A stretch of 64,000 nt of DNA from Capitulum mitella (taxonomy: Eukaryota > Arthropoda > Thecostraca > Pollicipedomorpha > Pollicipedidae). Where the stretch lies: positions 6,635,661-6,699,660 of the forward strand of contig CP099851.1 of assembly GCA_030062745.1 (NCBI GenBank). The letters are read 5' to 3'. The notes under the pieces were generated by a model that worked only from the letters and a program-made list of their open reading frames with translations, had not been told where the DNA came from and made no database searches. A program made the translations under genes and the position numbers. Numbering within the stretch: position 1 is the first letter of the stretch; every line of letters starts with the position of its first letter. Below are positions 28,340 to 64,000 of this stretch, in pieces.

Positions 28340-29566
28340 TTAACCCGCGCACGACCGTCGGTCCGTTTGCAACATGGGTGACTGGGGGGGAGGCAGTTGG
28401 CCGCCCCCCTCAAACTCACAAACGGTTGGTCGCGCGATAAAAATAAGCACACCGTTAAAAAGCTTGTGACCAGTAGAGCTCGCAACTGGTCTTATTTTTA
28501 GTTTTAGATAATATGTAAGACTTACGCCCTATATAAATATATATGTTTTCTCATAGCCGGCTCCATGAGACCGAGAAATGGCCTGAATCTCAAGGGCTGT
28601 GACTAAAAACGCCTAGGTCAAGGCACCAGCGCACAAGTAAAGGTCCGTGGATGCCGATACACGCCTAATTTCCCAGATTTGTTCAATATATGCGCCGAAA
28701 CGTTGAGTTAAAGACACGGCATTTCTTGCGGCAGCTGTAGGCGTGCGCTGCTGCCGTATACACTAACAAGTTAACGAGAACTAATTTTAGCTTTCCTTTA
28801 TTTCCGCGAAAAAGACGATCTATGTATATTTTATTGATCTTAATGGTTCTTGTGATGGTTTTTCATGCTTAAATTTAGAAAAAATTAATTAGTTACCAAT
28901 GTACAGAATTGGCGGAGCTTTATTCGCGAGAGCCTGTTTATTTCCAAAATATGCTACTTTTTCAAACTTGTTGAGGTTCCTGGTATTACTTACGCCTGTG
29001 CAAGCTAGTTCTGCCAGTTTTTACTCATTCTCAGTAATTCATCGATAATTTTGACGGTGGTACATTTTGGCTCACTAGTTATTTGTGGCCTGACCTCAGG
29101 TCAATGGCTGGAAGTCATTGATATTTTGTCCAATGACGGTAACTAGATGTCTGCTTGACTCCACACTAAAAATGTTATGAAATATTCCGTCAATTTCCAA
29201 AAAAACGACGAGATGTGTTAAAAATGGGCTTGACCTTAGGTCAATGACTTAGAAAATTCCGAAAAATCTGAGATAGCAGATTTGTTGCATCTATCACGTT
29301 CACTAATCCCTGAAAGCATTATTGAGATATCTTGTTTTGCGAAAAAGTTATAGAGCGCTAAACTTTTTTGGACATAGGTCCGTTTGACCTGACCTAGGTC
29401 AGGCACCTGACCTGACCTGAGGTCAAAATTTTGACAGGAGATGTAAAATTGATGAAGCAAAAGGTACACGAAGTTTCTGTGTGACTCTGTGTTTGTTGGT
29501 TCTTTCGCAATCTCAGAAAAACCTCAGGGGGGGTAGTCAACTGCCCCTCAGTCGGGGAGGGGTTAA
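28340..29566 (+). mobile_element. TTAA-type non-autonomous element, family F2 (copy 1)
   Basis: Starts TTAACCCGCGCACGACCG and ends GGGGAGGGGTTAA, 1,227 bp. An inverted second copy lies at 44,340-45,555 and shares the interior. Near both tips a G-run, a short palindrome and a C-run occur: around 28,385 (GGGAGGCAGTTGGCCGCCCCC) and 29,526 (TAGTCAACTG between G and C runs). A dense cluster of AGGTCA/TGACCT half-sites lies at 29,384-29,424. No transposase. It is piggyBac-like by its TTAA target and CCC tips. Confidence 0.75.
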
Positions 29567-29725
29567 AAAGCAATCCTCCCGAAAGTAATTTGACTAATTC
29601 CCAAAGACATTTCAACGAAACAGCACTTACACCACAACCGCCACAAATCTTCGTACATCTGTCACAACGTTTGTCAGAAACAGAGGGTTATCGTGGGCTT
29701 ATCCCTGGCCCGCGCCAATCGTCAC
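29567..29725. other. Short spacer
   Basis: Nothing recognised. Confidence 0.3.
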
Positions 29726-29888
29726 TTGGCAGGGGATGTCGCGCTCCGTGCGGACGGCGCCCGTCGGCTGCCGTCGCCGGGGCAGCGGCCGCCTTCGCCG
29801 GGCCGGCGCCGTCAGTTCGCGCTCGTAGAAGCCGCCGATACGCGAGGTCACCACATCGCGCAGCCGCACGGTGTCGAGCCCGAGCGAC
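29726..29888 (-). CDS. Probable exon of an unrecognised minus-strand gene
   Basis: After a GACACTGCCAG acceptor, the minus strand encodes SLGLDTVRLRDVVTSRIGG, FYERELTAPA, an Arg/Pro-rich stretch, and VRTERDIPCQ before a weak GTGACG donor. The first half looks like folded protein; the second half is basic and less constrained. It may share a gene with the exons at 30.2-30.5, 24.3 and 22.6 kb. Function unknown. Confidence 0.4.
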
Positions 29889-30464: not shown

Positions 30465-30499
30465 CTGCAGACGGTGCTGCGTGCGGACGGGTGTCACAT

Positions 30500-32898: not shown

Positions 32899-33020
32899 GT
32901 GAGAACAGAATGTGCACAATAAGTTGTGAATAGTGAAGCATAATTATGAAGCTTGTCGACTATTGCTTGGACTTTTTGCCTTAACCATATTCTCTGCAGG
33001 CAGTGAGATTCACATTACCC

Positions 33021-33595: not shown

Positions 33596-34384
33596 TCCAG
33601 AGATCTCGAGATGCATTCGTCCAATGTTGATGGAATGAATGCCATTTAATATGTTTCAACGAGATCTCTAATTCCGGACCCCAAAAACTCCAAAATTGCG
33701 AAAATAGGGCGTGGGGGCAAAAAAACTCCAAAATTTCGGGATTTTGAAAGGTCACTGCTGCCGTGTTTACCAACCAATTTTCATGGGAATAACACGGTTC
33801 AGCTTGAAATGTCCAAGTCTTTTATATACCGAAAGCTGAAATTTAAAACAGAAAACCATAGGCAGTTCCAGGGAGGGCAAAAAGGGTGATTTTTGAAATA
33901 AGAAATTTCCTTTGCTTTTTTTGTTTTGGGTGATATAAACATCAGATGTACAACTAGCAAGCCAGTTTAAGTTTATATGTAGCGAAGAGGTGGATCCAGG
34001 TAAACAAAATTGGGAGGGCACCATAAGCACAATAGTGTGCTCCCCTATTTTTTCAGTACCTGGGTGTGCGTTCGCCTGAAAATGTGTGTGCATACGCATT
34101 GTTTAGGATGTGTATGACTATATAAATGAGTCAGTGATCTTTATTTCTACTCAGAATGTCACGATAGTGAACCGCACAACTTTGCAGCTTCACGCACAGC
34201 AGATTACCGCCGAAAACGGGGGCTTGGAACCGCCTCTGCGGGACCGATTTTTTTTTTAAATGTTGACAAAACACTTGTGTATCAATTCCATGAAATGCCA
34301 GAAAATCTTGTGGCGCTGCGGCAAACAGTGTGGGAGCGACAAGCAAAAAGACACGGGTAGCAGAATCTGCCCCCCCCACAGGGA

Positions 34385-34450
34385 ATAGGGTTAAATGAAG
34401 TGTTTTTAACCCGTCTCCGGCCGGGCTCAGAATGCCCTTTGCCCGGCCGG
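34385..34450. repeat. Element-tip debris with TTAA
   Basis: GGGAATAGGGTTAA (ends about 34,394) equals the right tip of F1 elements, and TTAACCCGTCTCCGGCCGGG follows about 22 bp later. These look like an element end and another element start. I cannot find complete partners. Confidence 0.4.
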
Positions 34451-36480: not shown

Positions 36481-36499
36481 CGGAAACCAGCCAGCCAGT

Positions 36500-37377: not shown

Positions 37378-38090
37378 AAACAGAACGTCGGGGAAAAGTT
37401 AAATTTGTATCGTAGGAAAACTGCCCATGAATGAGTTCCAAAACACTAAAAAAGTTTCGGATTTTTTTTTAAATAATGACATTTTTGACCCGTATATGTT
37501 AAAAATAATACCTTCGAAGTGTTCTAGTTCCGACCATGAAAAATGCTAGAGCAATTCTAAAGATGCCATTGAAAAGACAATAGAATGTGCATTTCGGTTA
37601 AATATAATTTATAACATGCATATAATGAAATATTGCATCGGGTGACGAGGTATAACGTCGTTTTCACTTCCCTATATCTGTGAGGTTTTTGGACTTTGCT
37701 GACGAGTTGTTGTCCATGTATGCTTCCAAAATTGAAGAAAAGACTTGCACAAACATTTTCTTTAAATATTGACGAACTAAAACGCCCATGACTGAACGTG
37801 ACATGACCTGAGCTTGTCACCAAACCTAACATTCAGCCGTTTTCTTTGCTTTATTTCGTGTTCTGTCGCAGATCATTGACAATGCAAACAAAAGGGCAAG
37901 CAGTAGCTTTGGATTCAAACTCTTTGGGTTCTCCCACCATGATAAATATGGTAAGGGCGGTCATATGACCTGACCTGACATAGGATTATGACCTGATTTG
38001 GAACACGCTTGGGCTTCATGTTTTTTTGTGCCTAGATCTTCCATTATCTCATGAAGTGAACTGGAACATTATTGATTTTTGATAGGAGGG
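37378..38090 (+). repeat. Partial copy of TTAA element family F4
   Basis: Matches about 46,838-47,530: ACAGAACGTCGG, GAATGTGCATT(T/C)CGGT, CATATAATnA(A/C)(A/G)TATTGCATC and GAGTTGTTG occur in the same order. Both tips seem missing. Confidence 0.7.
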
Positions 38091-38846: not shown

Positions 38847-40065
38847 TTAACCCTATTCCCGGCAGGGGGGGGCGGAATCCGCCCCCCCTCGGGTTTCTTG
38901 CTTGCCAATTCTAGGCTTTTTAACGCAGCTTCACGAAACTTAGTCACTTTTCCTAGCTATTCTTTCTGCTTGCCGTGACAAAATTTCAAAATTCTATTTT
39001 GCTCAGGGGCGGAGCCAGGCAACGTTTTTGGGAGGCACCTCATGCCATTTCTGGCCATGTAAAGGGTAAAAGGAAAATGTCTGCCAAAAACAGAGTTTTT
39101 AAGATAGAACTTAAAACTTTATATGGATCTATAGCTCAATAGTTGGGCAATGTGCAGATATAGTTTTATTCTCCTGAGGTCATTTTGCAAGGTCAGGTCA
39201 AGGTCAAAAGTCAAAATTTATTTTTTCCGCTATAATTTCGGTGCTGTTTTTTTTTCAAATGCCAAACCCGGAATATGTATGACGTAGAAGGGTGGCTTCT
39301 ACTTGTGTACCAAGTTTTAGCTTGATATCAGGTCGGGTCACGGAGCTATGGCCTAAAATGTCCGTGAGCGTACCCTATACCGCAATAGCCATAAAATGAA
39401 ATTTTTGAAATAGAGTGAATTCAAATGATTGAAAACGTTTAAAGATAATATTAAATGCACAGGAGATCATTCCAAGTGACCACAAGGTCACTGGAGGTCA
39501 TTTAAGGTCAAAGGTCACAAGTTGATCTGAGAAACGTGTGACCATGACAGTTCCCCCTTTTTCATGTCCCTGGCACCGCCTATGCTAACATTATACAAAC
39601 ATTGTAATGCGATTTGTACTTCTTTAGTATAACATGACTAGCAGAAGCCAAAAAAGGGTGTTTGCCTCTTTTGTTCATCCAGTTGTTAGAAAATTAATCC
39701 TCCTATTTTTGAAACCCTGTGAACGCCCATGAATTTTCTCAAAATTTCAGATTTGCGGACCCATGGTAAAAGTCCTATCCATGATCTCTCGATTCATGCC
39801 AGTTTCATCGAAATCGGTCAATAAACAAGGGAGTTATAAGAAGTCCAAAAGTACCCCCCATTTTGACATTTTTGCCCCCCTGTATCCACAAATTTCAAAA
39901 TTTTGAAACTTTCTTTTTATAAAAAGGTAGTTAACGTCACGACAAATCGATTGCCGTTTGTTGCGATGAAATCGGACAAGTAGTTCTCGAGATCTCAGGG
40001 GGGCCGAATCCGCCCCCACTGCCGGGAATCGGCCTTACCGCCTAGCCCTCCGGGAATAGGGTTAA
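38847..40065 (+). mobile_element. TTAA-type non-autonomous element, family F1 (copy A)
   Basis: The tips are TTAACCCTATTCCCGG and CCGGGAATAGGGTTAA, 1,219 bp overall, with TTAA on both sides as in piggyBac insertions. Just inside each tip is a G-run, CGGAATCCG and a C-run (38,866 and about 40,000). The interior carries AAGGTCAGGTCAAGGTCA (39,189), and an array from 39,487 that ends in AGGTCAAAGGTCA, a perfect one-base-spaced direct repeat. It also contains CAGGGGCGGAGCCAGG near 39,005 and an inverse-like GGCACCGCCTATG near 39,580. These may be an older hAT MITE shared by all F1 copies. No open transposase frame. Confidence 0.8.
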
Positions 40066-43469: not shown

Positions 43470-44343
43470 TTAGCATGCAAAACAGGAAGATAACACTGAG
43501 TGTTGTCATTCTGTCACGTGGAAAGCTGAACGGGAAGTGTCTGGATGATAGGACATTGCTTATTAAGTGCATCGATAGCATTCGGTACGTTTTACGAAGG
43601 ACATGAATGGTATGTGTACAACTTGATGATTGGCAATGCGTTACAGTGAAAACGGATGGGCCATTGGCGGACTGAATACCCTATGGTGATAAATCGATGC
43701 AATGATGATTTCCAGAAAGAGTTCAGTCGTCGTTTCTGCCGAGTTAATGGCGATAATTCGCCGTTTCTGACAAGCGCTGTCAATAGGCATTCTCACATGC
43801 TGCGCAGCTGCCGGCATCAGGCACCAGTGACGTCACCGCTCTGTACTGAGCGTCTCGAAGATGGACATATGTAGTGTTATGAGAGTACCTCCTGGTAACT
43901 GCTGATGTGAGGCTGTTCTTTCTACCTTCATGGCGCACCGTATGCATCACGCGATCCGAGAGCAGCGACGAGACAGCGTTTGTCATCGGATACCCAGGCC
44001 CGTTCGGTCTCCTCAACACGTGCCTGCCCAGTGCCAGTGCTTGTAATAAACGGCGAACTATCGTCATTAACATGAAAGCAGAGGCAACTGGACTTTTTCA
44101 TGGAAATCACCATCGTACTGATATGTCACCAAAGACTATCCAGTCCGCCAATGGCCCATCCGTTTTCACCGTGATGCATTGCCGTGTATCAAGCTGTGTA
44201 AACACCATTTACATCCTACAAAAAATATGCCGAATGCTATCAATGCACTTAGCAAGCAATGCCCTACCATTCAGACACTTCAAGTTTCCGAATGACACAA
44301 GCTATGGCAATGCCTGGTGTCATGATCCTGTTCTGCATGCTAA
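43470..44343. mobile_element. Foldback element with arms of 300 bp or more
   Basis: The left arm (about 43,470-43,785) and right arm (about 44,030-44,343) are inverted copies. The block around ACGGATGGGCCATTGGCGG and AGCATGC are in both. The tips are TTAGCATGC and GCATGCTAA. The left flank CACTGGTA (43,462-43,469) pairs with CACCGGTA at 45,556-45,563, which would be its 8-bp duplication (7/8 identical) once the F2 element inserted in the right tip is set aside. No coding capacity. Confidence 0.7.
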
Positions 44344-45555
44344 CCCGTCCCCGACTGGGGGGGCAATTGACTGCCCCCCCCTGAAATTTTGTGGAATTGC
44401 AAGAGAACGAACAAACACTGAGTCACGAAACTTTCTGTACCTTTTTCTCCATCAATTTTACATCTTGTGTCAAAATTTTGACCTCAGGTCAGGTCAGGTG
44501 CCTGACCTAAGTCAGGTCAAACGGACCTATGTCCAAAAAAGTTAAACGCCTGCAACTTTTTCGCAAAACAAGATATCTTAATAATACTTTCAGGGATTAG
44601 TGATCGTGACAGATGCAACAAATCTGCTATCTCAGATTTTTGGGACTTTTCCGGGTCATTGACCTAAGGTCAAGCCTATTTTTAAGACATGTCGCCTTTT
44701 TTCGGAAATCGACGGAATATTTCATAACATTTTTAGTGTGGAGTGAAGCAGACATCTAGTTACCATCATTGGGCAAAGTATCAATGACTTCCAGCCATTG
44801 GCCTGAGTTCAGGTCACGAATAACTGTAGTGAGCCAAAATGTACCACCGTCAAAATCGACGATGAATTACTCAGAATGGGTAGAAAATAGCAGAACTAGC
44901 TTGCACAGACGTAAGTAATACCAGGAACCTCAAAAAGTCTGAAAAAGTAGCATATTTTGGAATAAACAGGCTCTCGCGAATAAAGCTCCTCCAATTTTGT
45001 AGATTGGTAACTAATCAGTTTTTCCAAAATTTAAGCATGAGAAACCGTCACAAGAACCACAAAGATCAATGAAATATACAAAGATCGTCTTTTTTTGCAA
45101 AAATAAAGGAACGCTAAAACTAGTTCCCGTCATTTTGGTACCGCATACGGCAGCGGCGCACCCCGACAGCGGGCGGGAGAATTGCCGTGTCTTTAACTCA
45201 ACGTTTCGTCGTATATATTGAACAAATCTGGGAAATTAGACGTGTATCGGCATCCGGGGACCTTTACTTGTGCGCTGGTGCCTTTACCTATGCGTTATTA
45301 GTCACAGCCCTTGATATTCAGGCCATTTCTCGGTCTGATGCAGTCGGCTATGAGAAAACATATATAGGGCGTAAATTGCTTACATATTATCTAAAACTAA
45401 AAATGAGACCAGTTTCGAGCTCTGCTCGTCACAAGCTTTCCAACGGTATGCTTATTTTTATCGTGCGACCAACCGTTCGTGAATTAGAGGGGGGCAGTCA
45501 ACTGCCCCCCCAGTCGTCCATGTTCGAAACGGACCGACGGTTGTGCGCTGGCTAA
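44340..45555 (-). mobile_element. TTAA-type element, family F2 (copy 2), nested in a foldback tip
   Basis: Inverted relative to copy 1 (28,340-29,566). It is bounded by CTAA on both sides (44,340-44,343 and 45,552-45,555), so it used CTAA instead of TTAA. Tip signatures GGGGGGGCAATTGACTGCCCC (44,358) and GGGGGGCAGTCAACTGCCCC (45,489) are present, as is the half-site cluster at 44,480-44,520. Confidence 0.75.
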
Positions 45556-46752: not shown

Positions 46753-48176
46753 TTAACCCTCCCCCTATCGGCCCCCTGACATGGGCGGCCGAGCCCTGGC
46801 GAGACAGGGGGCGTTTCGACGTCCCCCTCTATCTTGCGAACAGAACGTCGGAAAAATTAAACTTACGTTGTCGGAGAGTTCGCCATACATGCGTTCCAGA
46901 GCACTCAAAATTTTCTCAAATTTTAGAAAAATGGTGCAATTTTTCTCATCTTTTAATGAGAAATAGGAGTGTTTGAGAAGAGCTCTAGCTTCGAATTCCG
47001 AACAGGCCAATGGAAAACCCATAGAATGTGCATTCCGGTGACATGTGATTATAACTTGCATATAATCACGTATTGCATCACGCGATCTGATATAATGTCA
47101 TTTTTCATTTCGCTATATTTGTGAGATTTTTGAACGTCGCTGGAGAGTTGTTGTCGATGTATGCTTCCAAAACGGTGGGAATGATCTCCACCAACATTTT
47201 TTTCTTAAACACCAGCAGACTTGGACGCCAATAAACCGACATGCTCCAACCTGATCTTGTGACCCGACCAAATATTAAGCCCTTCTCTTTGCTTTATTTT
47301 GTGTTTTGTCGAGGATCAGTAACAATGCAAACAAAAGGGCAAGGAATACCTTTGAACTGGAGCTCCTTTGGTTTTACAACTGTGATCTATAGACGCTATG
47401 TAATGTCGACCGTATGACCTAACTTTACGTTTGATCATGACCTGATTTCAAGCACGCTTGTGTTTCATCTTTTCATGCCTAGATCTGCTATTGGCTCATG
47501 AAATAAACCAGAGAGATAAAGATGGACATCTGGATATGAACTCAGCCTCTACCACGGTGGCCTCGCATGACCTCAGATGACCTAAGGTTATTTCACAACA
47601 TGCAAGCGTCTTGATGCAATGCTCAACTACAAAATCGACTTCAGTGCCTATTTTTACCCCAGGAATCATCAGAGCAGGGTTTAGATTCCTTTTTTGCTAG
47701 TTTATCCAAAATGTGACCTTGATGAACTTCTGACGCTTCATGTCGGCCAAAACCATTTTTCGTGATTAGTGACATTCTTGGCCAAGGAACGCATTTCAGA
47801 CAACAAGCCGAGGAAATGGCTCGAAACCCTTGGAAATAGCGAAATAGGAGGGAAATTGAGCTGACCTCAGGTGATTAACCTTGAGTTTGACAAACAATCT
47901 GAGATAGCACAATTCCTAGGAATGTCCTCGACTACTGTTCCTAAAAAAGTTAGGTCGACAGACCGCACGGCGTAGTTTGTTGAAGATTTTGAAGGAATCA
48001 GAGGCTTACCTCTTTTACGTGACCCAGGTTACTGACCTCAGAAGACCGGAAGTCGAAAATTATACAGGACATGCGCAAAAGGTTTAAGAAAAGGGACTGA
48101 AAATTTTGCTTCCACCAAAAGTCCTGGGGGAAGTCGAAACGTCCCCCCCCTCCCTTTCCGATTGGGTGTGGATTAA
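46753..48176 (+). mobile_element. TTAA-type non-autonomous element, family F4
   Basis: Starts TTAACCCTCCCCCTATCGG. The right end, inverted, reads TTAATCCACACCCAATCGG, matching 15 of 19 bases. The interior matches 37,378-38,090. Its final TTAA (48,173-48,176) is also the first TTAA of an F3 element, so two insertions share one target. GACCTCAG-type half-sites occur near 47,570. No transposase. Confidence 0.65.
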
Positions 48177-48905
48177 CCCGCTACCGCCTGGAGGGTGTTA
48201 TATAGGTCACTCCTATCGTTCTTTCCTGAATAACTTCTGAACTGTTAGAGTCAGCGCAGACGGATATTCAGCACCTATTCAACAATCAGTTTGACATATT
48301 TTGACATGAAAACCATTTTCATGCTACGTCAGGTCATGGAGATGTGACGTCATAAGTGAGCCCTTGCATGCTTGTTTTTGCCTGTTCAGGCGGTGACGCG
48401 AATTTGCTTGTTTTTTCATAATATTTACGAATATAGTGCATGAATTATTTGGATTTGCAGAGGGCAAGATCCCGAAAAGGATATACAATCGTGATATGTC
48501 AATATTAGAGGTCATGCTAGGTCACATGCATGATGGCGACTGGACTGATTCGCATTGTGGTTGATGGAGATTGTTGCTGCTGACTTTCCCCATCGTTCAA
48601 GTCAGACAAACAAATTTATATGTGCTTCTTAGGGAAGTCCAGCAAATGCAACGTGAGGTCATCTCAGGTCAGGTCACGTCATAGGTGGATGTCAAAACGA
48701 AAACGAAACGTCAAAACGAGTAATGTTTGCTCTTCATCAGGAAATGCAATGCAACCTTATCTGACCTGACCTAGACTGACCTAGACGAAATGCAGATAAT
48801 GCAAAACTGATCATAAGAAGGTTTCACATACATTCTTTTCGTCACGTAGACCAAAACGGCTGCGAGTAAATATCGATCTTTGGCATAAAAAGTAAGACCA
48901 ATATT
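48173..48905 (+). mobile_element. TTAA-type element, family F3 (truncated copy)
   Basis: Starts TTAACCCGCTACCGCCTGG and follows the F3 copy at 58,085 up to the GATCTTTGGCAT ... AAGACCAATATT block (48,870-48,905), after which similarity ends. AGGTCAGGTCACGTCATAGG occurs at 48,666. Confidence 0.65.
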
Positions 48906-51756: not shown

Positions 51757-54700
51757 GTGAGTGCTTATGTGATTGGAGTTTAGCGTCGAGCCTTGGGCTG
51801 TGTTGCTCTGAAGAAAAGATCCCTGCCACCTGGTCTTCCTCTACTATCATTCCCATACTGAAATCTGGCAAACCTTCCACTATCCTTGGCACTTACCGCC
51901 TCGTGTCACTCACCAGCTGCGCATGTCAACTTCAAAAGAAAGATTAATGATCGGATTATAGTATATGCGAGCACGAACAGTATTCTTTCTCTTTCCAGCG
52001 CGGCTATCGATCGCGTCTATCCATGGCCGATGGCCTAATCCAAGTCATTCACTCTATCCAAAATAGGTTATCCCATCGCGAGTTGAAGGTAGCGCCATTC
52101 CTGGACTTGAAAGCTTCCTTCGACAAAGTACACCGTTCTCCCGTCTTCATAAAACTAGAGGCAAACCTACGCGTTACGCGGCTGGTTTGGGAGAAAAATC
52201 GAAGCTTTGCGTCTCGCCTAGACCTGTGCACCCGCTTAGTACCAGCATTTCCCTTCTCATAAGTAAAAGATGCTTGCGAGTCGGTACCATTCACACACTT
52301 GCACAGTGAAAGAAATCTGTATAATAACGCCTTACTATGAGCTCTGGAAATGCTCCGCGGCCGGCAGGGCTCGAACCCGCGGTTTCTGATTCGCAGTCAT
52401 ACGTTCTGACCACTAAGCCACGATCGCCAGAGACCAGAAATGGTCTGAAATGGGATCCCTTAGTAAACTGCACTGCTCGCGTCTTGTAAATGGTCCATAA
52501 AAGAGTCGCAGATGCATAGCACGTGGCTCCTTACACATTGTATGAGGTACCGTTGGATAGCCCTGGTGCTGGTATGTCTACTCACCTAATTCCAGCCGCC
52601 TAGATCACTGCTTTCGGCACTCGGAGGTCTCCGAGTCCAAATCGGAACACATACCTGAGGATCGCCACGTGGATCACACTTCGGTACAGACCACAAAAGC
52701 ATGCTCCGCAGGTGCGGCCCATGTTTTCATCACGTCTTGAGTCAGCAGCACCCGCCATTGGACCTGTGCTCGTGATTAATTGAATTCTGCAGGGATTTGC
52801 CTCGCGTCGCGTGGTACGTGCTACAAGCTCGCGTCGCTCGAGACCTGCATCATAATTTGTCCGCCGGGTCGGCGCACCGCTTCCATTTGTGTCGCGATTA
52901 GCTGGCGCGCTCGGACGCTAGAGGCTCCGAAGCTTGAAGACACATACACACGCTGATACACACAAACATCTCGATCTGAACTTTTCGGAGCGACTGCCAG
53001 CTATGAAATCCCACTCGCTAACAACTCATTCGCATCATGGAAACAACTGCCAAGGCTTCACCCACGGACGTCCGTAAGGTCGTTGCATCGCGGGTGCGCG
53101 AGCTAAGCTCCATTCCTCCACAGTCATCTTCGGACGGCGACCGACTCCGCCGCCGTCGCCGTCGCCGGCCGCCAGCGACCTGGGCTCCTCCTGCCTGACT
53201 CCCGAGGACCGGCCGGGCGTCTGTGGGCTGGTGACCAAGTGCGCCTCGCTCACCAAACACCTGAAGAATAGGAACATCGCCTACCTGAAGGCGTCCCTCT
53301 GTGGCCGGCACGGCTCCACGCAACTGCTGGTCAGCGTGCGGACGGAGGGTTAAGCTCAGGCTCCACTGCGCGCTCTTTTGTTTTGCGATTTTCCGTTTTG
53401 ACGTTTTTTTGTATCGGGAATTCCCTCTTTTTCGTTTTTGCATTTTGTTCTTTTGCACCACGATTTCGCATTTTTCATCTTCGCGTTCTTTGAGTTTGCT
53501 ATCGTCGACATAGTGTAGCTGTATTTAAACTGAGTGGTGTGCACGGATTTACAGCAGAGACGCAGCCAGGATTTTCTTACGGGGGGAGGGGGGAGAGCTC
53601 AGTGTGAACTGAAATCAGACGGAACTTGCCTGCTGGGAAGACGGTGTGCAATGGTTTTCACGCAAATGGGTGCCTGAGGGGGGAACGCTGGCAGAGGCGT
53701 TGATGTCTGTAAATGATGGGGGGGAGGGCGCGGGTTGGTGGGAGTGGCCGAGCCGAGGACTTGACAACCTGACCTCCCTCAAATGTGGTTTTCTCAACGG
53801 ATTTAGCACACTTCATTTTGACCAACGGAAATTACAAGTTTTTGTTACTTTTCATAATTTTAAGAAGTTCATTTAATATCATGCATATATATATATATAT
53901 ATATGTAGAAGATAGCAAGATGAATAAATACGTCTCCCTAGACGATATTTTTTGCTTTCTATCTCTTCTCTATTGCGGCTGTTCTTTGCTCTGTTATTTC
54001 CCATTTGCCCTTAAAACAGGCAGAAAATATTGGGGGCCCAAACCAACATGGAGGCGGGCCAGATCAACAAAGGATGTGCCAGGGCCCTCTCAAAAGAATA
54101 CAGATCGACACCCCTGGGGTCTGGGCCTCCCGGGATACCTTTAGCTGCGCTGGTGATTTACAGTTCAGAAACAGAACTGAGGTTTTCGGAGGTGGATCCA
54201 GCTTTTGGACGTCGGCGCCTATCACGCCTGCTGCTGCGGCGGCGGCTTTCGGCATCGGGACCGGCAGCAGCAAGTGCTGTCTGTCTTTCATGTAAATGTT
54301 TCCCTGTAATCAAGCACGCAAGTGGGAGATGTAAAAGTTTCTGATTACCAGCAAGTAGCTATCAGCACTGCAGTAATCAACATGCCTGTTAAGATTACCT
54401 TGACCCAGAGGCGCAGCCAAGGGGGCGCCCTCCTTAACCCTATTTCCGGCAGGGAGCTGAATCTGCCCCCCTCAGGTTTTTTGCTTGCCAATTCCAGGCT
54501 TTTTAACGCATTTTACGAAACTTGGTGATTTTTCCTAGCTATTCTTTCAACGCTCCGTGACAAAATTTCAAAACTCTATTTTGCTCAGGGACGGAGCCAG
54601 GCAACGTTTTTGGGAGGCACCTCATGCCATTTTTGGCCATGTTGAGGGTAAAAGGAAAATGTCTGCCAAAAACAGCGTTTTTAAGATAGAACTTAAAACT

Positions 54701-57700
54701 TTACATGGATGTATAGCTACGTAGTTCAGCAATGTGCAAACATAATTTTGTTCATCTGAGGTACAAGCTCAAGTCAAGGTCAAAAGTCAAAATTTGGTTT
54801 TATAGTAATAATTTCGGCGCTGTTTCTTCAAATGCCAAACCCGGAATATATGTGACGTAGAGAGGTACTCTCTACTTGTGTATCAAGTTTCAGTGTGATA
54901 TCAGGTCGGGTCACGGAGCTATGACCTAAAATGTCAGTGCGCGTGCCCTATACAGCAATAGCCATAAAATGAAACTTTTGAAATAGAGTAAATTCAAATG
55001 ATTGGAAACGTCTACAGATAATATTAAATGCACACGAGATCATTCCAAGTGACTCCAAGGTCATTGGAGGTCATTCAAGATCAAAGGTCACAGGTTGATC
55101 CGAAGAACGTGTGACCATGACAGTTCCCCGTTTTTCATATCCCTGACACCGCCTTTGCTAACATTATACAAACATTATAATGCGATTTGTACTTGTTTAG
55201 CATAACATGACTAGCAGAAGCCAAAAAAGTGTTTTTTGCCTTTTTTGTTCATTCAGTTGTTGAACAACTAATCGTCCTAATTTTGAAACCCTACGAACGC
55301 CCATGAATTTTCCCAAAATTTCAGACGTGTGTGCCAATGGTAAAAGTCCTATCCATCATCTCACGATTCATGCCAATTTCATCGAAATTGGTCGATAAAC
55401 AACGGAGTTATAAGAATTCCAAAAATACCCCTGATTTTGATATTTTTGCCCCCTGTATCCACACCTTTCAAAACCTTGAAAATTTCTTTTCATAAAAATG
55501 TAGTTTACGTCATGGCATATCGATTGCCGTTTGTTGCGATAAAATCGGATGTGTAGTTTTCGAGACCTCGGGGGGGGGGGGGGAGGCGGAGGGCGAATCC
55601 GCCCCCCCCTGCCGGGAATCCACCATACCGTCTAGCCCTCCGGGAATAGGGTTAAGCCCGCTTTTTTGTGAAAGCTATCGCATATCGTCTTCCCGGCAGC
55701 CGGTTTTCGTATGATTTCTGTCCACACTGAGCTCCGGGTCCTCTTTAAGAAAATCCTGGCTGCGCCCCTACCTTGACCTTGCCCCTCCACCAAGGCGCTC
55801 TTCTCTCCAGGTACTTGTTCCTCTTCCTCCGCCTTCACCGAACCAGCCAAGGTAACTACAACGCCAAACCCTAAACCCTGAACTTGGAACCAGCCCTCCG
55901 TGCTCCCGTCCTCAAAATCCACTCAGATTCAAGGAAACCTAAAATTGATGCGACGCGGCTTCCAGTCCAGGGCGATGTGACCAGCGTAGTCAATGTGACT
56001 GTGTTGGAAAACCGGAAATATTTAGACATTTCTTTTCTTTGCCGATTTTTTGATTTTTTTCTTTCTCGGAATTCTCGCTTTTCTATTTTTCGTTTTACCT
56101 TCTCGAATCTCGGCCTTTTCAATTCGTTTTACGGTTTCTTGTCATGAGTTTGCGTTTTTCCAATACGGTGTTGCGTAGTGGAGCCGGCCGCGTCTATTCT
56201 TACGGATCTAACATTTTTCGGTGACGGAATAGTGCAAAACCGGGATGAAAAGCCGCAAAATCGAAACAGCAAATTGAAAAACCGCGCAGTGGAGACTGGC
56301 TGTTATGGTCAGGAATTTGGCCTGAGGCGTTCAACTGCCCCAGGCGGTCACTGGGGGGAAGGAGGGCAGTAACGTGTTGTGGGGTGGTCAGTTGCTTGTG
56401 GGGCGGTCAGTAGCGTTTTGTGGGGTGGTCAGTAAGGTGTTTTGGGGTGGTCAGTAATGTGTTTCGGGGCGGTCAGTAACGGGTTGTGGGGCAGTTAGTA
56501 ACGTGTTGTGGGGAGGTCACAATTCTGCGCTGGTGAAGTCAAGGATCCGCGGCATTACGGGCAGTCAGATCTGCTGTTAGACGTGTCTAATAAAGCGCAG
56601 AAGGCCGGACAAACGTACGTTTTGCGCATTTACGTGCTATTTCATTTGTAGGCGTTTTTCAGTTCAATTCTTTAATTTCTGACGCGTCTGATCTGACATA
56701 CCTACGTTTCTTTCACAGTGCCTGTGAAACCTAACTGGCATTTCCATGCATCGTGGGTGGGCAACAGTAAACATTGTTCCTACATCTCAAAGACGTGATG
56801 TCGGCAGAGCAAGCAGCGCTCTGCCAGCGTTGCCGTTTCATAAACGAAAAATTGCGAGCTCCCTCCCCTTCGGCTCTGTCCCAATCGCAGCTGGCGGCTT
56901 GTGACGTGACGGCACGAGGTGAATTTCAGTATGAACTTGCCGCACCAAATAACGAAGCATAATATGTCTCTTTCCTGGTCGAAATCGCGTAAATAAGGCA
57001 GACGGCGATTTAACCGTTCGTAGCCGTTTGCATTCTTCTTGCGGTGCCGACCCTGTGACGAGCTGGTGCCCAGATTTGCAATGTTGAGAAGAAAATGTGA
57101 TTTAAGCATTAAATAAATACATCCCAGTTGTGGAAATAATTCCATCTGAACATCATTTTGGCAGCAAATTGCATGTGTTGAGACCCTGATGTTGCATCTT
57201 CACAGTGCAGAAATCAATCAAAATGCATCTTCCCCCTCCACGATTTTGACATCCTTTGGAAATGTTTACATCCGCACAAGTAACTGAAAATAGACTTTTT
57301 AAAATTGTGGCCGTTGGTAACCTTTGTTTTTGCCTTTACCACGGAAATATTTACATATTTCGATTTATTTGCTGCATCTCGACTCCAGTGTGAAATGAAA
57401 TGGGCCACATTGGTTGGTGCGGGCTGGAAAAAAACAGCCGTTTCCTGGTGACCACTGAGACACTAAGAAATTTGTTTTGAAGGATATATGTAGTAAAAAG
57501 TAACTAAGATCTGAGCGTTTAAGTGATATATCGCGGATTTAGTTTTTCATTGTATTTTCCATCCTTTCAGCGTTTTCCCTGTGCAAATCCTGCAAAACTG
57601 CATGCTCATCGGGCAAATTTACGCATCGTTACCATGTTTTCGAAGCCCGCGTTTTAAGCGGCGTCGCGGCCTGTGTCGGCAGTGCTGCCCGGACGGCGTG

Positions 57701-60040
57701 ACGGCGCAGTTCGTGTCGCCGAAGAACTGTGGCGTCTCACAGCTGGACTCTAGCCACATTGTGGGCGGCTTTCCGGTCAGGAAGTTGGGCGACTTCCCCT
57801 GGATGGCGGCGCTGGGCTACCGCTCGAAGCCCGTCTTCAAGTGCGGCGGCGCCGTCATCAACAGCCGCTGGATCTTGACGGCCGCTCACTGCCTCACGAG
57901 GGACGGACCGTGAGTGGCGGCTGCCGGGGAACGGCAGGGCGCGGCGGGGCACAGGGCAGAGCACAGGACAGCAGGGCAGGTGGTGCCCGCAGCAGTCACC
58001 CTGCCTCAGGGCAGCAGCCAGAGGTACTGAGGAAAGCATTCGTTCGCCCTGCGTCCACGCCAAGTCGTTTAATTACGTATTCAATTAACCCGGCACCGTC
58101 TGTGGATGTCAAATAGTGTACCTCTCGATTTTGCTGGAATAACTTCTGAAGTGTTAAAGTCAGCCCAGACAAATCTTTCGTAGCTGTTCATCAATCAGTT
58201 TCACACAATTTGACATCAGAATCATTTCCATGCTAGGTTAGGTCATGGAGATACGACGCCATAAATGAGCCATTACATTCATGTTTTCACGTCTTCGGCT
58301 GGTGGCGCAAACATGCTTCGTTTTTTATAATATTCGCCAATATGATGCATACATTATTTGAAGTTAAATAGGACGCGGTCCCGAAAAGGACATAGAACCG
58401 TGACACATCAATGTCAGAGGCCATGCCAGGTCATATGCATGATGACAATTCGGCCGATTTGCGTTGCGGATGATAGAAGTGGTTGTCGCTGACCTTCACC
58501 ATCGTTCAAGCCAGACAAGCAAATCTATATCCGCCTCTTAGAAAGGTTTACGAAATGCTACGTGAGGTCATGCCAGGTAACGTCATAGGTATATGACAAA
58601 ACGAAATGAAATACAACATTGTCTGTGTAAGGTAGTTCAGAAGCAGCAGAGAGCAATTATTGTTCTTAGAAAAAATGACTTTCCGCCATGGCGTGGATTG
58701 AGCTGGACCCGATAAAGAGGGGACAGCGAAGATTGAATGACCACGAGATGTCTCCATTTCTATATCTAACGCAGTTCAGAATCCCAGACAATAGTTATTG
58801 TTCTTTGACAGGAAGAGTAATGCAGCCTTATCTGACCTGACCTAGACCGACCTTGACTGGATAAAAAGCAGGTAATGCAGCACCACTCATCATCAGGTTT
58901 CATTTTCGTCCTTTTAATCATCTGAATCAACACGGTTCTTAGTAAGCGTCGATCTTTGGCATGTGAAGAAAGACCAATATTTCACCTGACCTGGGCTGCA
59001 CTGAGCTGCACTGCATGATATTTTTTAACTCTTTAGCAAGTTTTTGATGCAGAGGGTTCTTATCTTTCGTCTGGTACCAAGTTAAATGTTTTAAGACCAT
59101 TATCGCCGGTGATATGATGTACAAACCGATGTCACCTTTTCCGACGTTGTGTTATGCGTCTTTCGCGGCCTGTGCCGTCATCAGTCGCGTGAATAGGGAT
59201 AACATAGTATTTTCTGAGTCATAAGATTCAGGGCTATCGACTGGTGGCAGACCAGTTCAGCTCCGACAATTAAATCCTGAGATAATAGAGGGGCGTCCTT
59301 TTTGGCACCCGCAGGCGGTCGCAGGTACAAAAACACGCCAGGCGGCGCCTGGTTAGTGTTCGGCTATTAAACTGATGGCACCTTTGCAAGGTGATTTTGC
59401 TATGTATGCCATTTTTTTCTGAGAAACAAAAAATGACTCTACAAGTACGTTTGTATCCTTGTCGTTAGGTTATGGTAACTGGCGACGAATCTTCGTGACG
59501 TTTTGATAACACGATGAGGAGAAAACCTCAGATTTATGCTAGACTGCTGTCACCGTCACCACAACATCAGCTAACATGAAGCCTAACCCTTTGTCATGAA
59601 GCAATACATCTTTCTGTCTGGATTTAACTGTGACAAAATGCTGAGCTTTGAACACCATGAGATGAACCTTGATTTTGGATGGCAACGTGAAACATCATTT
59701 CCTCCTTGAAATTAACCATATTTTGAGATTCTGTGATTGCCTGTCGGTAAAAAAAAAGTTGTGAGTGAAGACTTTTCTATTCCAAGGCAGACCTAAGGAA
59801 GGCGAAACTTAAGTCCACCAAAGCGGGAATGAGGATTCATCCTCACAAATTTAACATTATTTGATATTACGCATGGAATATTGTTTTATAAGATGTCTGA
59901 GTATCAAAATTATTGTGTTGACTGCTCTGCTGGTGCCGCGTCTGTCACCGCCCACCATCCTGGCAAGGTGGTTTCGAGTCGTCTCTGCGCCCGCTGTTTC
60001 TTCCGAAAGTCGCTTGACGCCTGTCTACAGAGATATGTGG

Positions 60041-60099
<59 letters not shown>

Positions 60100-62726
60100 A
60101 CCCTGGCTACCATGTGACGGTGTTGTTGATGTCGGTACGCTAAAGGTTCGCCTCAAAGTTATTCCACTAACCTGGAATTGGGTGATTGGGCGCAGAGATC
60201 AGAGTCCGTGCAGCAGGCACTGCTTAGAGCGATCTCTGATGCAAACACTGCCGTCACCGACAAAACATTCAGATCAAATTAGAAATCTTTTATTTTTACA
60301 ACATCCATTTTCCTTCGTCCTCACACTGAACATTAATCCACAGCTGATCGTAGGTTACGTATAGAATTGAATTGCAAATGTCAGCAAATCATGCTGATCT
60401 TTTGGCGCCGACGTGTGCTAACGTACCAGGGGCAGCGTCTTCGGCATAACCTTGTTTGGGAAATGCGAAAAGAAGTGCAAATACAAAGAAACCATGACGA
60501 GAACAAAGGCAACTGAAACGAATGGTATGCGGCATTTTATGGCTGATTTGTACTGAACAGAGCGTGTGCCCAAATCACATAAGTTGAAAACCTTACATAT
60601 TCTACCTAAAGAGATAAAGAAGAACTGCCAAGAAATAGAACGAAAGATTTATTAAGACGGCAGATAAAAGCGATCATGGCTCATTGAATTTATGCTACCG
60701 AGCGTGCGTCAGAGCTTTGGGTACTCTTATCCGGAATTTCAAGTTCATCGTCTCATTTTTAGTGCCACTGTATGTTCTGCAACGTGTCAATATGTCCGAA
60801 ACGAATTTTGTTTCTTGTCTTCATCGCAGACATGTTACCGTTCTTAAACGGCGAATAGGTTTCCTTTTGTTCATAACTGCCTTGAAAAATACATGGAAAT
60901 GTTTCCTTCATGTTTTTTTTAAGTAGCGTACATAAGATCACTCTGGTTTCTCTAGTCCTTGCAATGGCGGTTGAACGTGGGTAATGCAGATTGGTTTTAG
61001 ACACTGAAGAACAAAGAACATCATTATTCTGTTCATTTGGATCGTCATTTGTCAGATCGTCGCCCATTCAGATACGGAGAGCCGCTAACAACCAGAACGT
61101 CTGTTGCCTGTGGACAAGAGTGAAACATTTCGATATCTTTGTTGAAACATTCAAACATCTTATTTCGATGTCGATGAATAGCTTAACTAAAAACAGATCA
61201 TTCATTTTCCATCCTTCCGAAGGCACGTTAATGGCGTGAAAGAGAAGGGGGAGGGGAGTAAAGGAGAGGGGAGGAGTCTCAGGACTCACGCATGTTTCCC
61301 ATACGCATATGATGTGTGCACTTTCACCGGTTTGAAAGTTGTAAGGGTGCTACTGTTTCAACGTTTGCAAACATTGGATAGAGCGGATGTGTTCTGATGG
61401 GTTTGAATTAAGGCTGAGGATTCGCAGGCATTTTAGGATTTGAATGCTAGTGTGAGCGGATTCGGATTCGGATTCCAGATTCGAGTGGACTGAAATGTAT
61501 TTGAATCTTTGCAATGAAGTCGCGAAATTTGAACGTCGTATGGTACCCACTTTAAAACCGATTTTATTGGTTTCTGGCTGTCTGGCTGACTCAACGTTTC
61601 TGCCAGTGGCGCATTTCTGGGGGGGGGGGGGGGGTATTGAAACCAGTCCCTGTAAGTGTCGAAGTTTTGGTTTTTGATGTGGAATGGGGAAAGCTTATAA
61701 CAAGGTAGGCATGGTGCCGCAACCTTTCCCCTCCATACTTGTTTACACATCAAATAGATATCTGACCTATCAACAAGCTAATGGTCATGACGAGTGTGAA
61801 AATCCATGAAGAATGAATGCCTCAGTACATGGATACAGGTTTAATCCGGCAGTGGCTGGCCCCATTGGCCACCTTCCGCTTGCCAGGGCTGGCCGTCAAC
61901 ACGTTCAGTACAGGTCCGGTGGAGCACCTACATATACGCGTTACATTTAGTTTATCTGAAGAAAGTTGGAGCCTGAAGTATATTTCATTGCATTTATCTG
62001 CAAATTTAAATGATGGCTGTTAGGACCCGGGTATGGTTTTTTGGAATTCGAATCCTGATCTTCAGGGCTCGAATCCTCGTTTTAAGAATTCGAGGATTCG
62101 CAGGGGCACGGGAATACACGGGGAAATACTTTGAAAATACATGGGCACAGGAACTCCTCTTCAACTGAGGGGGGGGGAGAAGCATTTTGGGTTGATTGTT
62201 TCCAGATAACGCCCATAGGGTCAATGTTAAATTTCAAAGAAGTTGGGGATGAAGGTCCATGGCCCCATGGCTTCCGTGCCTACATTCAAATATATTCGAA
62301 TCTATTCGAATCCTGCGAATCCAAATCTTTAGCACTTGTTTGCACGCCTTTTTGGTGGCTGACCGCTTAGGAAGGCCTCCGCCAACGGGACGAAAGATTT
62401 GCCATCACGAGAACGAGAGGGGGATGATCCCGCGCTCACCACTCGCCGACTCGGTCTCTGTCGCTCCCCGCGGCGCTATCTGTGCGGCCATTTCCGCTGA
62501 ATCTGCGAATCTTAGTGTTTTGATGATGATCGCAGAATCTCTGCACGTGTTGGAGATCTGAATCTGGTCACCCCGATCGACGATGACGTCTCCAGTCCTC
62601 CGCAAAACATCGAGATCGAGAAGGCCATCAGACATCCAGAGTTCTCCGGAGGATTCATCGCTCCGAACAAGGGCCTGATCAACGATATCGCCGTCCTCAA
62701 GGTCAAAACGCTGATTGCGTTTTCAC
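51684..62726 (+). CDS. Clip-domain serine protease (CLIPC-like), first four coding exons; 3' part outside window
   Basis: Exons 51,684-51,756, 53,124-53,329 (or 53,335), 57,683-57,909 and 62,536-62,726 join with matching phases (1, 0, 2). The order is: signal peptide (RIFCFLVLLSWLSAGSAQ); a Pro/Ser linker; a clip domain (CLTPEDRPGVC, TKCASL, SLCGRHG, CCPDG); the NCG Cys that tethers it to the catalytic chain; activation site SSH/IVGGFPV; the catalytic His in LTAAHCL; and the catalytic Asp in NDIAVLKV. The catalytic Ser exon lies beyond 62,727. Such proteases are secreted zymogens in arthropod immune, clotting and developmental cascades. His before IVGG, rather than Arg/Lys, points to the CLIPC group (Snake/Persephone type). 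ATG context ACCATGG is strong. Introns are 1.4, 4.4 and 4.6 kb and full of mobile elements. Confidence 0.85.
51800..52260 (+). mobile_element. LINE (Jockey/I-like) reverse transcriptase fragment
   Basis: PATWSSSTIIPILKSGKPST and YRLVSLTSCA match the first reverse transcriptase blocks (P-x2-W ... IIPI-x-K-x-GK ... YRPISL). GYRSRLSMADGLIQVIHSIQ and VAPFLDLKASFDKVH match the next (G(F/Y)R-x2-ST-x-D and (F)LD-x3-(A)FD-x-V). The usual YRPISL appears as YRLVSL, and the reading frame is interrupted near 51,945 and again between the two halves. The fragment is truncated at both ends. It sits in intron 1 of the protease. Confidence 0.75.
52357..52427 (-). tRNA. tRNA-like sequence (anticodon GCG, Arg-type), probably a SINE head
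   Basis: On the minus strand: acceptor GCGATCG pairing with CGGCCGC (one mismatch), A-box TGGCTTAGTGG, loop CTGCGAA with anticodon GCG, T-stem GCGGG/CCTGC and B-box GGTTCGAGCCC. Both polymerase III boxes are intact. The anticodon stem has a mismatch, and GCG is not the usual eukaryotic Arg(CGN) anticodon, so I read it as the head of a tRNA-derived SINE whose body runs down to about 52,260. It lies in intron 1 of the protease, antisense to it. Confidence 0.6.
52430..53123 (+). other. Rest of protease intron 1
   Basis: No further element recognised. Ends with the acceptor CCTCCACAG at 53,123. Confidence 0.5.
53124..53329 (+). CDS. Protease exon 2: clip domain
   Basis: Entered in phase 1 (A + TC). 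It encodes a Pro/Ser linker and five clip-domain Cys contexts up to TQLL. The donor is ambiguous: GTCAGC after 53,329 gives LLCCP across the junction, and GTGCGG after 53,335 gives LLVSCCP; both keep phase 0. Confidence 0.75.
53555..54155. mobile_element. hAT-type MITE, 601 bp
   Basis: Flanked by perfect 8-bp duplications ATTTACAG (53,547-53,554 and 54,156-54,163). The left tip reads CAGAGACGCAGCCAGG. The right tip, inverted, reads CACCAGCGCAGCTAAAGG. G-rich stretches and a TA microsatellite (about 53,884) lie inside. It sits in protease intron 2. Confidence 0.6.
54406..55770. mobile_element. Small hAT-type MITE (about 143 bp) split by an F1 element
   Basis: The tips CAGAGGCGCAGCCA and, inverted, TAGGGGCGCAGCCA fit the hAT (C/T)A(N)NG rule. 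Perfect 8-bp duplications CCTTGACC flank it (54,398-54,405 and 55,771-55,778). The F1 element fills 54,434-55,655, leaving 28 bp of MITE on the left and 115 bp on the right. Confidence 0.75.
54434..55655 (+). mobile_element. TTAA-type element, family F1 (copy B)
   Basis: Tips TTAACCCTATTTCCGG and CCGGGAATAGGGTTAA, 1,222 bp, same interior as copy A including the half-site array at about 55,050-55,095. Inserted in a TTAA inside the hAT MITE. Confidence 0.8.
55779..56345 (+). other. Protease intron 2, unique-looking stretch
   Basis: No exon recognised. A T-rich tract lies at about 56,025-56,150. Confidence 0.35.
56346..56520. repeat. GGTCAGTAACGTGTTGTGGGG tandem repeat, about seven units
   Basis: Units of roughly 20-25 bp are built on GGTCAGTAA(C/T)GTGTT(G/T)(T/C)GGGG, with small length changes between units. 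In protease intron 2. Confidence 0.85.
56521..57682 (+). other. End of protease intron 2
   Basis: No exon or element recognised. The acceptor CTGTGTCGGCAG at 57,682 has only a modest pyrimidine tract. Confidence 0.35.
57683..57909 (+). CDS. Protease exon 3: end of clip domain, activation site and catalytic His
   Basis: Entered in phase 0 with CCPDGV. It contains SPKNCGVSQ, SSHIVGGFPVRKLGDFPWMA, KCGGAVINSRWILTAAHCL and ends phase 2 at GGACC/GTGAGT. Confidence 0.88.
58085..59356 (+). mobile_element. TTAA-type element, family F3 (copy within composite 2)
   Basis: Tips TTAACCCGGCACCG and the inverse of CTAACCAGGCGCCGCCTGG, 1.27 kb. GACCTGACCTAGACCGACCT (58,838) is its half-site cluster. Confidence 0.7.
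60042..60097. repeat. TA microsatellite
   Basis: TA dinucleotide run inside composite copy 2, longer than its partner at 16,264. Confidence 0.95.
62536..62726 (+). CDS. Protease exon 4: catalytic Asp
   Basis: After a GATCGCAG acceptor. Two bases left from exon 3 plus A make Pro, then ISARVGDLNLVTP, IEKAIRHPEFSGG and NDIAVLKVKTL. It ends in phase 1 at TTCAC/GTAAGA. Confidence 0.85.
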
Positions 62727-63140
62727 GTAAGAAGTTCTAGTAATGCTGCAAAATGCATCGGGTTTAGCTGTACGTTTGTTTAGGTTTGGTGTAAGATCAG
62801 TAGGGAAATGAAACATGCAGATGCTCGTTTAGTGGAAACAAGCGGCAATTCTTTTTTAAACTTCTCAGTGCTATCGTATCACACATTCTTGTATTATTCA
62901 AGAGCGCTGTTTTAACAAATATTGTTTTGTTCAGCAGACCTTAAAAACACTATTTCTCAGATGCAATCATTTAGTTGAGATACGTAGTGTTGGTATTCCT
63001 AGAAAACTAGGAATACCATTATGTTGCCCATCATTGTTCTGCTGACGTGAAGGACTTTATTGTTCTTCGTGATTATTTGGAAGACGGTGACCAGCTTTCT
63101 GGTCAGAGTAACAGCAACGCTAGAGCAACAGCACTGCTCT
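62727..63140 (+). other. Start of next protease intron
   Basis: AT-rich; a short inverted pair GTATTCCTAG...CTAGGAATAC lies at 62,992. No exon. Confidence 0.5.
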
Positions 63141-64000
63141 TTAACGCTATTCCCGGAGGGCTAGACGGCATGGTCGATTCCCGGCAGGGGGAGGATTCGG
63201 CCCCCCCCTGAGATCTCGAGAACTACTCGTCCGATTTCATCGCAACAAACGGCAATCGATTTGCCGTGACGTGAACTACATTATGATAGAAAGAAATTTT
63301 CAAAATTTTGAAATTTGTGGATAAAGGGGGGCAAAAATGTCAAAATGGGGGGTACTTTTCGACTTCTTATAACTCCGTTGTTTATCGACCGATTCCGATG
63401 AAACTGGCATGAATCGAGAGATTATGGATAGGGCTTTTGCCATGGGTCCACAAATCTGAAATTTTGAGAAAATTCATGGTCGTTCACAGGGTTTCAAAAA
63501 TAGGAGGATTAGTTTTCTAACAACTGAATGAACAAAAGAGGCAAACACACTTTTTTGGCTTCTGCTAGTCATGTTATACTAAATAAGTACAAATCGCATT
63601 ACAATGTTTGTACAATGTTAGCATAGGCAGTGCCAGGGACATGAAAAAGGGGGAACTGTCACGGTCACACGTTTCTCAGATCAACTTGTGACCTTTGACC
63701 TTAAATGACCTCCAGTGACCTTGGGGTCACCTGGAATGATGTGTGCATTTAATATTATCTGTAAACGTTTTCAATCATTTGAATTCACTCTATTTCAAAA
63801 AATTCGTTTTCTGGCTATTGCGATATAGGGTACGAGCACTGACATTTTAGGTCATAGCTCCGTGACCCGACCTGATATCAAGCTGAAACTTGGTATACAA
63901 GTAAAGGGAACCTTTCTACGTCATTTATATTTCGGGTTTGACATAAAAAAACGGCGCCGAAATTATTGGAAAAAAACACATTTTAACTTTTGACCTTGAC
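63141..64000 (-). mobile_element. TTAA-type element, family F1 (copy C, runs off the window)
   Basis: Begins TTAACGCTATTCCCGGAGGG, the inverse of the F1 right end, and matches copies A and B up to the window edge. It carries the perfect TGACCTTTGACCT motif near 63,691. Confidence 0.8.

Follow-up and report, generated by a model that had tools for sequence, protein, structure and literature searches.

AGGTCA clusters in a group of TTAA elements of Capitulum mitella and their possible role in element multiplication

Introduction

The 64-kb window analysed here, a stretch of contig C13 in the 477-Mb, 16-contig genome of Capitulum mitella, holds several families of TTAA elements (F1 to F4) that raise a simple question: why do elements with different interiors all carry clusters of the same hexamer, AGGTCA? 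This word is the half-site of many nuclear receptors, and a first, sequence-only reading of the window had proposed that unrelated families either bind a shared transposase through it or spread receptor sites through the genome. Here, we studied the window together with a genome sample of 20 scattered 10-kb pieces (200 kb in total, GC content 48%), counting exact AGGTCA and its reverse complement TGACCT together as sites. Our tentative answer, which we rate somewhat below an even chance, is that these are related non-autonomous elements that kept AGGTCA clusters for their own multiplication, by way of a putative host protein that binds half-sites. New here are the clusters about every 150 bp, the relict tandem units in F3 and in a fifth element, F7, and a contrast between shared and private substitutions.

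AGGTCA is strongly over-represented in all four families

The window contains 132 sites. Compared with an order-1 model, positions 22001-64000 hold 105 sites for 19.3 expected and positions 1-22000 hold 27 for 9.4; outside the F1-F4 elements, the corresponding values are 43 for 14.1 and 17 for 7.7. Individual F1-F4 copies carry 2-11 sites each, against means of 0.3-0.6 in 500 dinucleotide shuffles per element. None of the 500 shuffles reached the observed count for F1a (8 sites), F1b (5), F1c (6, in a copy clipped by the window end), F2a (11), F2b (8), F3a (10), F3b (6) or F4a (4), the end of F2a being taken at 29569 and the start of F2b at 44334 for this test. Two long F3-containing stretches behaved similarly (F3L1, 10 sites, 0/500; F3L2, 8 sites, 1/500), and F4b, with 2 sites, does not stand out (19/500). 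The copies and clusters concerned are as follows.

28340..29566, plus strand: F2 copy, TTAA to TTAA, 11 sites
29385..29425: F2 cluster, six half-sites (--+--+) in 41 bp
44341..45555, minus strand: second F2 copy, 87.8% identical, 8 sites
44479..44519: five clustered half-sites within F2b
38847..40065, plus strand: F1 copy, TTAA to TTAA, 8 sites
39177..39206, plus strand: F1 cluster of four sites, with TCAAGGTCA
39485..39517, plus strand: F1 cluster of four sites, with the direct repeat AGGTCAAAGGTCA (39505-39517) at its end
54434..55655, plus strand: second F1 copy, 85.9% identical, 5 sites
63141..64000, minus strand: third F1 copy, 91.5%, clipped by the window end, 6 sites, with the direct repeat at 63689-63701
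58085..59355, plus strand: F3 copy, its extent set by matches in L021 and L023
16990..18274, minus strand: F3 copy, not within the coordinates given by the sequence-only reading
48173..48905, plus strand: F3 copy in two matched pieces (48173-48702 and 48727-48905), 10 sites over the whole span; the right part is absent or rearranged
48762..48782, minus strand: F3 cluster TGACCTGACCTAGACTGACCT, three sites
46753..48176, plus strand: F4 copy with a TTAACCC start, adjoining F3 at 48173, right end read by eye
37379..38061, plus strand: F4 fragment, 4 sites
34207..34394, minus strand: short piece resembling the left end of F1 (62.5%), with tip TTAACCCTATTCCC

The motifs first read from the letters were recovered: the six half-sites within 41 bp of F2, TCAAGGTCA in the first F1 cluster, TGACCTGACCTAGAC of F3 at 48762, and both perfect AGGTCA-A-AGGTCA repeats, which had been placed at 39,510 and 63,691. 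The short piece at 34207..34394 is one more diverged relative.

The family consensuses contain 9 (F1), 11 (F2), 16 (F3) and 14 (F4) sites. Every family has clusters, well beyond what shuffling gives. The word is strict: AGGTCA occurs 50 times over the four consensuses for 2.4 expected, and all 18 of its one-base variants are 4.6-fold or less. The variant ACGTCA is also raised (9 for 2.0 expected), and the F3 consensus has two perfect TGACGTCA palindromes, at positions 170 and 1090, which we take to be like a cAMP response element (CRE).

In the genome sample, AGGTCA occurs 302 times for 91.7 expected and is the top over-represented 6-mer once simple repeats and G/C-only words are set aside. 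Sample copies of F1 hold 67 sites (4.7 expected), those of F2 61 (4.0), those of F3 55 (4.0) and those of F4 32 (2.1), and 153 AGGTCA sites fall within F1-F4 matches. When these matches are masked, 149 AGGTCA are left in 175,190 bases, in which nine hexamers of the same composition occur 43-129 times each. Among the repeats of the sample, the AGGTCA excess is specific to the F1-F4 group. The exact direct repeat with a one-base spacer (DR1) was counted 7332 times genome-wide, against 55 for a reversed control; given that seven of the eight DR1 loci fetched are F1 copies, this count mostly measures F1 copy number and was rejected as independent evidence.

The families share piggyBac-type ends

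F1-F4 are each ~1.2-1.4 kb long, as judged from the extent of sample matches, and cover 24,810 of the 200,000 sampled bases (~12%). Both ends of the F1-F3 consensuses and the left end of F4 read (T)TAA-CCC; the right tip of F4 is absent from its consensus. Each tip seen has one palindromic block of a G-run followed by a C-run, at unequal distances from the two tips (19 and 47 bp in F1, 17 and 45 bp in F2, 18 and 44 bp in F3, and 51 bp at the left of F4). The palindromes of piggyBac are also described as asymmetrically arranged in the accessible part of PMC11707139. Kolobok, whose termini are given as 5'-RR, unlike those of piggyBac, in the portion available of PMC9587614, was rejected, the termini of F1-F4 being 5'-CC.

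F7, a fifth TTAACCC element (L014:1251 to ~2560, its right tip being unclear), has three 148-bp units and 7 sites. Its relative in L003 is interrupted by an F1 copy, which has TTAA flanks on both sides; in L014, where the element is uninterrupted, one 4-bp CTAG, two letters off TTAA, stands at the insertion point. This evidence of TTAA duplication is one case, for F1 only, aligned by eye. The stretches that were compared with Pfam gave no coding domain. F1-F4 thus resemble non-autonomous, MITE-like (miniature inverted-repeat transposable element) piggyBac derivatives in TTAA duplication, CCC tips, unequal palindromes and the lack of any coding region found, and differ from them in their length and in the AGGTCA clusters inside them every ~150 bp.

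The families had initially been called unrelated. Local alignment of their consensuses with sites unmasked beat 30 shuffles for the left end of F1 and the right end of F2 (score 48.8, shuffles 27.2), for the right end of F2 and the left end of F3 (45.2, shuffles 25.3) and for the right ends of F2 and F4 (56.6, shuffles 28.3); among the weaker pairs that also did so are F1-F4 (35.6, shuffles 26.6), F1-F3 (30.7, shuffles 25.1) and F3-F4 (28.8, shuffles 25.3). Because common sites inflate such scores, the alignments were repeated with sites masked (100 shuffles, whose maxima are given second). F1 left and F2 right then aligned over their outer ~135 bp (34.5; 20.9), F2 right and F3 left over ~131-136 bp (32.5; 19.8), F2 left and F4 left over ~224 bp (49.0; 19.8), and the right part of F1 with the left part of F4 (29.9; 25.3); F1-F3 (23.2; 22.0) and F3-F4 (21.2; 20.5) were marginal, and the other six masked family comparisons stayed within shuffles. 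This end homology agrees with the position of the palindromes, near the tip in F1 left, F2 right and F3 left, and far from it in F1 right, F2 left and F4 left.

Since their outer ends are homologous even with sites masked, the four families are relatives. Beyond ~130-225 bp from the tips, masked interiors show no more than weak alignment between families. The claim of unrelated families thus stands for the interiors, and fails for the outer ends and the piggyBac-type tips that they have in common. Homology of whole interiors, clusters included, was considered and not upheld, as masked matches shrink to the outer ends. The families being relatives, their clusters may have been inherited and not have arisen convergently. 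That F1-F4 and F7 are diverged families of one non-autonomous piggyBac-type TTAA group forms part of our tentative reading and shares its confidence, which falls a little short of even.

Shared substitutions avoid the sites and private ones do not

Substitutions found in one copy (singletons) were taken as mostly post-insertion, and those found in at least two copies (shared) as mostly pre-insertion, that is, from the source element; this split is a proxy with no tree behind it. Pooled over the families, shared substitutions hit AGGTCA 30 times for 123.4 expected, an observed-to-expected ratio (O/E) of 0.24, whereas singletons hit it at an O/E of 0.98. Among 60 words with at least 12 loci each, AGGTCA ranks second for the shared deficit, behind its overlapping shift ACCTGA, and the top five for protection consist of AGGTCA and its overlapping shifts.

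Compared with rotated positions, shared rates at AGGTCA were low in F1 (0 against.0339; 0/3000 rotations), F3 (.0275 against.0596; 22/3000) and F4 (.0202 against.1095; 0/3000). Singleton rates were not significantly different from those at rotated positions in any family (970, 1543, 237 and 2238 of 3000 for F1 to F4). Moreover, pairwise retention, computed without any consensus, places AGGTCA 4th of 437 words.

The F1 substitution set comprises 17 copies, left from 20 aligned ones after removal of two from L015 and a partial one from L008. DR1 had been used to fetch seven of these 17, and DR1 bases were left out of the main F1 count. In this set, singletons fall on 18/607 bases at AGGTCA and 313/11630 elsewhere, and shared changes on 0/607 and 324/11630, respectively. 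With all 20 copies, the values are 21/605 and 358/12780 for singletons, and 2/605 and 533/12780 for shared changes. In F3, shared changes affect 12/475 bases at AGGTCA and 276/4993 elsewhere (p=0.0035). The singleton ratios of the other families are 1.02-1.03 (F2), 0.71 (F3, p=0.088) and 0.73 (F4, p=0.12). Of 341 sites, 213 are intact, against a fraction of.513 at rotated positions (0/2000), and random sets matched the intact sites in 15 (F1), 271 (F2), 48 (F3) and 35 (F4) of 2000 draws. In these last two tests and in the per-family substitution counts, the sites were set by the consensus, which favours well-kept sites; pairwise retention, the rotated-position rates, the pooled 60-word comparison and a test on F1 copies not chosen through DR1 avoid this bias.

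The contrast suggests selection during amplification, followed by neutral decay. The expectation that sites would be conserved above the rest of the element is borne out for shared changes; for singletons, the ratio is close to one. The elements do spread sites in the sense of copy number, but inserted copies seem to decay at an ordinary rate.

These patterns also bear on a further explanation, in which the sites are spread and retained by the host as receptor-controlled regulatory elements. That AGGTCA serves many nuclear receptors as their half-site speaks for it. So do the receptor-site transposons of primates, as far as the accessible parts of PMC1785376 and PMC3252374 describe them. However, typical copies show no sign of being kept by the host, because singletons hit sites at an ordinary rate, both pooled and in F1, and we judge this explanation very improbable. 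The host could still draw on a small part of the copies.

Clusters recur at about 150 bp

Clusters begin at least 130 bp inside the tips and lie ~130-1100 bp inward of them, mainly on one side in F1 and F2. Their centres are 154 and 150 bp apart in F1, 138 and 162 bp in F2, and 171, 150, 129, 159 and 148 bp in F4; in F3, with two lone sites set aside, spacing is 132-185 bp. When all centres are pooled, lone sites included, a period of 152 bp fits best, and 6 in 1000 random placements reached an equal fit. In the sample with F1-F4 included, distances between site pairs peak at 140-160 and 300-320 bp; masking F1-F4 leaves a smaller peak at 125-150 bp (19 pairs, with 12 on either side). Response elements of nuclear receptors pair RGGTCA half-sites in set arrangements. 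Within the consensuses, the commonest pair type is overlapping half-sites (spacer -1, 8 pairs), followed by direct repeats with a four-base spacer (DR4, 7 pairs), while DR1 and the inverted repeat IR1 occur once each and others at most 3 times. The EcR-type IR1 was rejected as the unit, given its single case in four consensuses.

Such a period could also be left by an ancestral ~150-bp TGACC-rich unit that was duplicated in tandem and spread with the elements without any function. F3 does contain relict tandem repeats, with a lag similarity of 99.0 (shuffle maximum 21.4) that persists when sites are masked (42.9 and 13.6), and the 148-bp unit repeated three times in L014, together with the ends that the families have in common, fits the same origin. 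In F2 and F4, the lag similarity left after masking of the sites is weak (17.4 against 15.2 and 18.5 against 13.9, respectively) and lies outside the clusters. By contrast, the lag-300 similarity of F1 is carried by the sites themselves, falling from 25.6 to the shuffle maximum of 14.1 once these are masked; moreover, the sites are spared by shared changes, and retention is high without any consensus. A functionless relict therefore appears an unlikely account of the clusters.

Autonomous-type piggyBac copies lack the excess

The genome contains at least 118 matches to DDE_Tnp_1_7, the piggyBac transposase, and 15 of these loci were inspected. Twelve have recognisable tips, which are of two types (A and B), neither of which is F-type; none were recognised in the other 3. 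No AGGTCA excess was found in the autonomous-type piggyBac repeats of 12 loci in which sites were counted (6 sites for 9.0 expected and 6 for 6.7), and a core stretch has 0 for 7.4 expected. Six family B copies (L032, L037, L038, L041, L042 and L043) have a common AGGTCA 63 bp from one tip. In L033, a family A autonomous-type piggyBac (tips at 1123 and 4025) lies inside an F2 copy, 268-4394, with F2-type tips at 268 and 4394.

The clusters might be sites for the elements' own transposase or another encoded protein, forming an internal array like the subterminal repeats of other DNA transposons. Sites of this kind would be protected in the source lineage and decay normally later, as is seen here, piggyBat has a further internal transposase site that restricts transposition (as given in the part of PMC11707139 at hand), and the transposase that mobilises F1-F4 tips was not among the 15 loci read of at least 118 matches. 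Against this, the tip palindromes already supply piggyBac-type sites, the clusters lie ~130-1100 bp inside and mainly on one side in F1 and F2, and the autonomous-type elements of this genome have no AGGTCA excess. For these reasons, the shared transposase that had been proposed as binder is not favoured, and we consider this explanation rather unlikely; a host protein appears likelier.

Other features of the window

The F3 copies at 16990..18274 and 58085..59355 form only the outer 1.3 kb of a 4.4-kb inverted duplicate (13905-18274 and 58085-62496, 85.6% identical). This repeat was rejected as an autonomous F3, as other copies place the F3 ends at 59355 and 16990, and a six-frame search of both its copies gave no Pfam match, the lone hit (E 0.16) being below the cut-off. 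A ~3.7-kb element at 31888-35595, with terminal repeats of type GTTACTCCGTTACTCC, holds further TTAACCC pieces; 2.8 kb of it are carried by L013 at 96% identity, and it has no Pfam match. Likewise, no Pfam match at E 0.01 was found in six frames of window positions 1-13900, in which a minisatellite (4234-4769, with 76-bp and 97-bp units at 97% matches) lies within a minus-strand open frame (4076-4999). An open frame at 19585-20478 closes with a C-type lectin match that is weak and does not reach the cut-off (E 0.03).

Discussion

We favour, tentatively, the reading that F1-F4 retained AGGTCA clusters because these serve multiplication. From the substitution patterns, source elements would multiply with their AGGTCA sites kept, while inserted copies are left to decay, and the sites would thus help an element to multiply. 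The strictness of the word points to a nuclear receptor as the putative binder: the sites may be bound by a germ-line-active host protein that recognises nuclear-receptor half-sites. Bound clusters, about one per nucleosome-sized interval, could keep the chromatin of the element open, and open chromatin would let a tip-binding transposase reach and mobilise it.

Several observations weigh against this proposal. Overlapping half-sites, the commonest pair type, presumably cannot hold two receptor domains at once. In F2, the shared rate is not significantly lowered (.0121 against.0336 at rotated positions, 261/3000; ratio 0.72-0.80, p=0.58 for 0.72), and the F4 count (0/272 against 32/3081, p=0.11) comes from 4 copies at a loose threshold. 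In F1 copies not chosen through DR1, the shared deficit is weaker (.0043 against.0246, 131/3000; with the L015 copies added,.0088 against.0420, 46/3000). In the seven DR1-chosen copies with DR1 bases kept, the deficit is not significant (0 against.0200, 237/3000) and singletons are low (.0185 against.0372, 64/3000). Motif changes are also rare in the six F1 copies that lie closest to the consensus (0.21 relative to local flanks), which fits poorly with neutral post-insertion decay. Of the tips, which served as a positive control, those of F1 alone are clearly protected (shared rate.0051 against.0379), with no clear protection in F2 (.0280 against.0387), F3 (.0707 against.0600) or F4 (.1188 against.1127). 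Moreover, repeated motifs can be drawn together by aligners, and sites within a family are not independent of each other.

Comparable cases exist in other lineages. MITEs of Brassicaceae amplified E2F sites (Henaff et al. 2014, via the accessible part of the review PMC12595863), and there, too, non-autonomous elements multiply one transcription-factor site genome-wide; they differ, as far as that source goes, in involving several superfamilies and a plant factor rather than one related group with half-site arrays, and the contrast between shared and private changes belongs to F1-F4. Alu repeats are retroelements, whereas F1-F4 are DNA elements with many half-sites each. Some Alu repeats carry direct repeats of the DR2 type responding to retinoic acid, or HNF4-alpha sites, and thus also spread AGGTCA-type sites by a transposable element (accessible portions of PMC1785376 and PMC3252374). 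The Cg_HINE or pearl-type elements of bivalves (oyster) are likewise non-autonomous with internal tandem repeats of about nucleosome length (monomers of ~140-180 bp), but they are Helentron-type rather than TTAA elements, and the part of PMC7492417 available mentions no AGGTCA array. In the literature searched, which reached few subscription papers, partly as excerpts, there was no report of AGGTCA arrays in piggyBac-type elements and no precedent for their combination with a shared/private contrast.

Binding sites carried by transposons are commonly presented as gifts to the host; for F1-F4, we suggest that the sites serve the element and that most copies then decay. Extrapolated from the density of sites within F1-F4 matches in the 200-kb sample, several hundred thousand half-sites would lie in repeats genome-wide, and these repeat-borne half-sites must be separated from genuine regulatory sites. 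If the binder is a nuclear receptor, F1-F4 would be DNA transposons tied to a hormone-receptor protein of their host, a link that could be tested. Elements making up about an eighth of the sampled genome might then depend on a host nuclear receptor, their half-site arrays might be maintained by selection acting on transposition, and transposon activity might follow the hormone-receptor state of the animal, a combined reading that we regard as doubtful at present.

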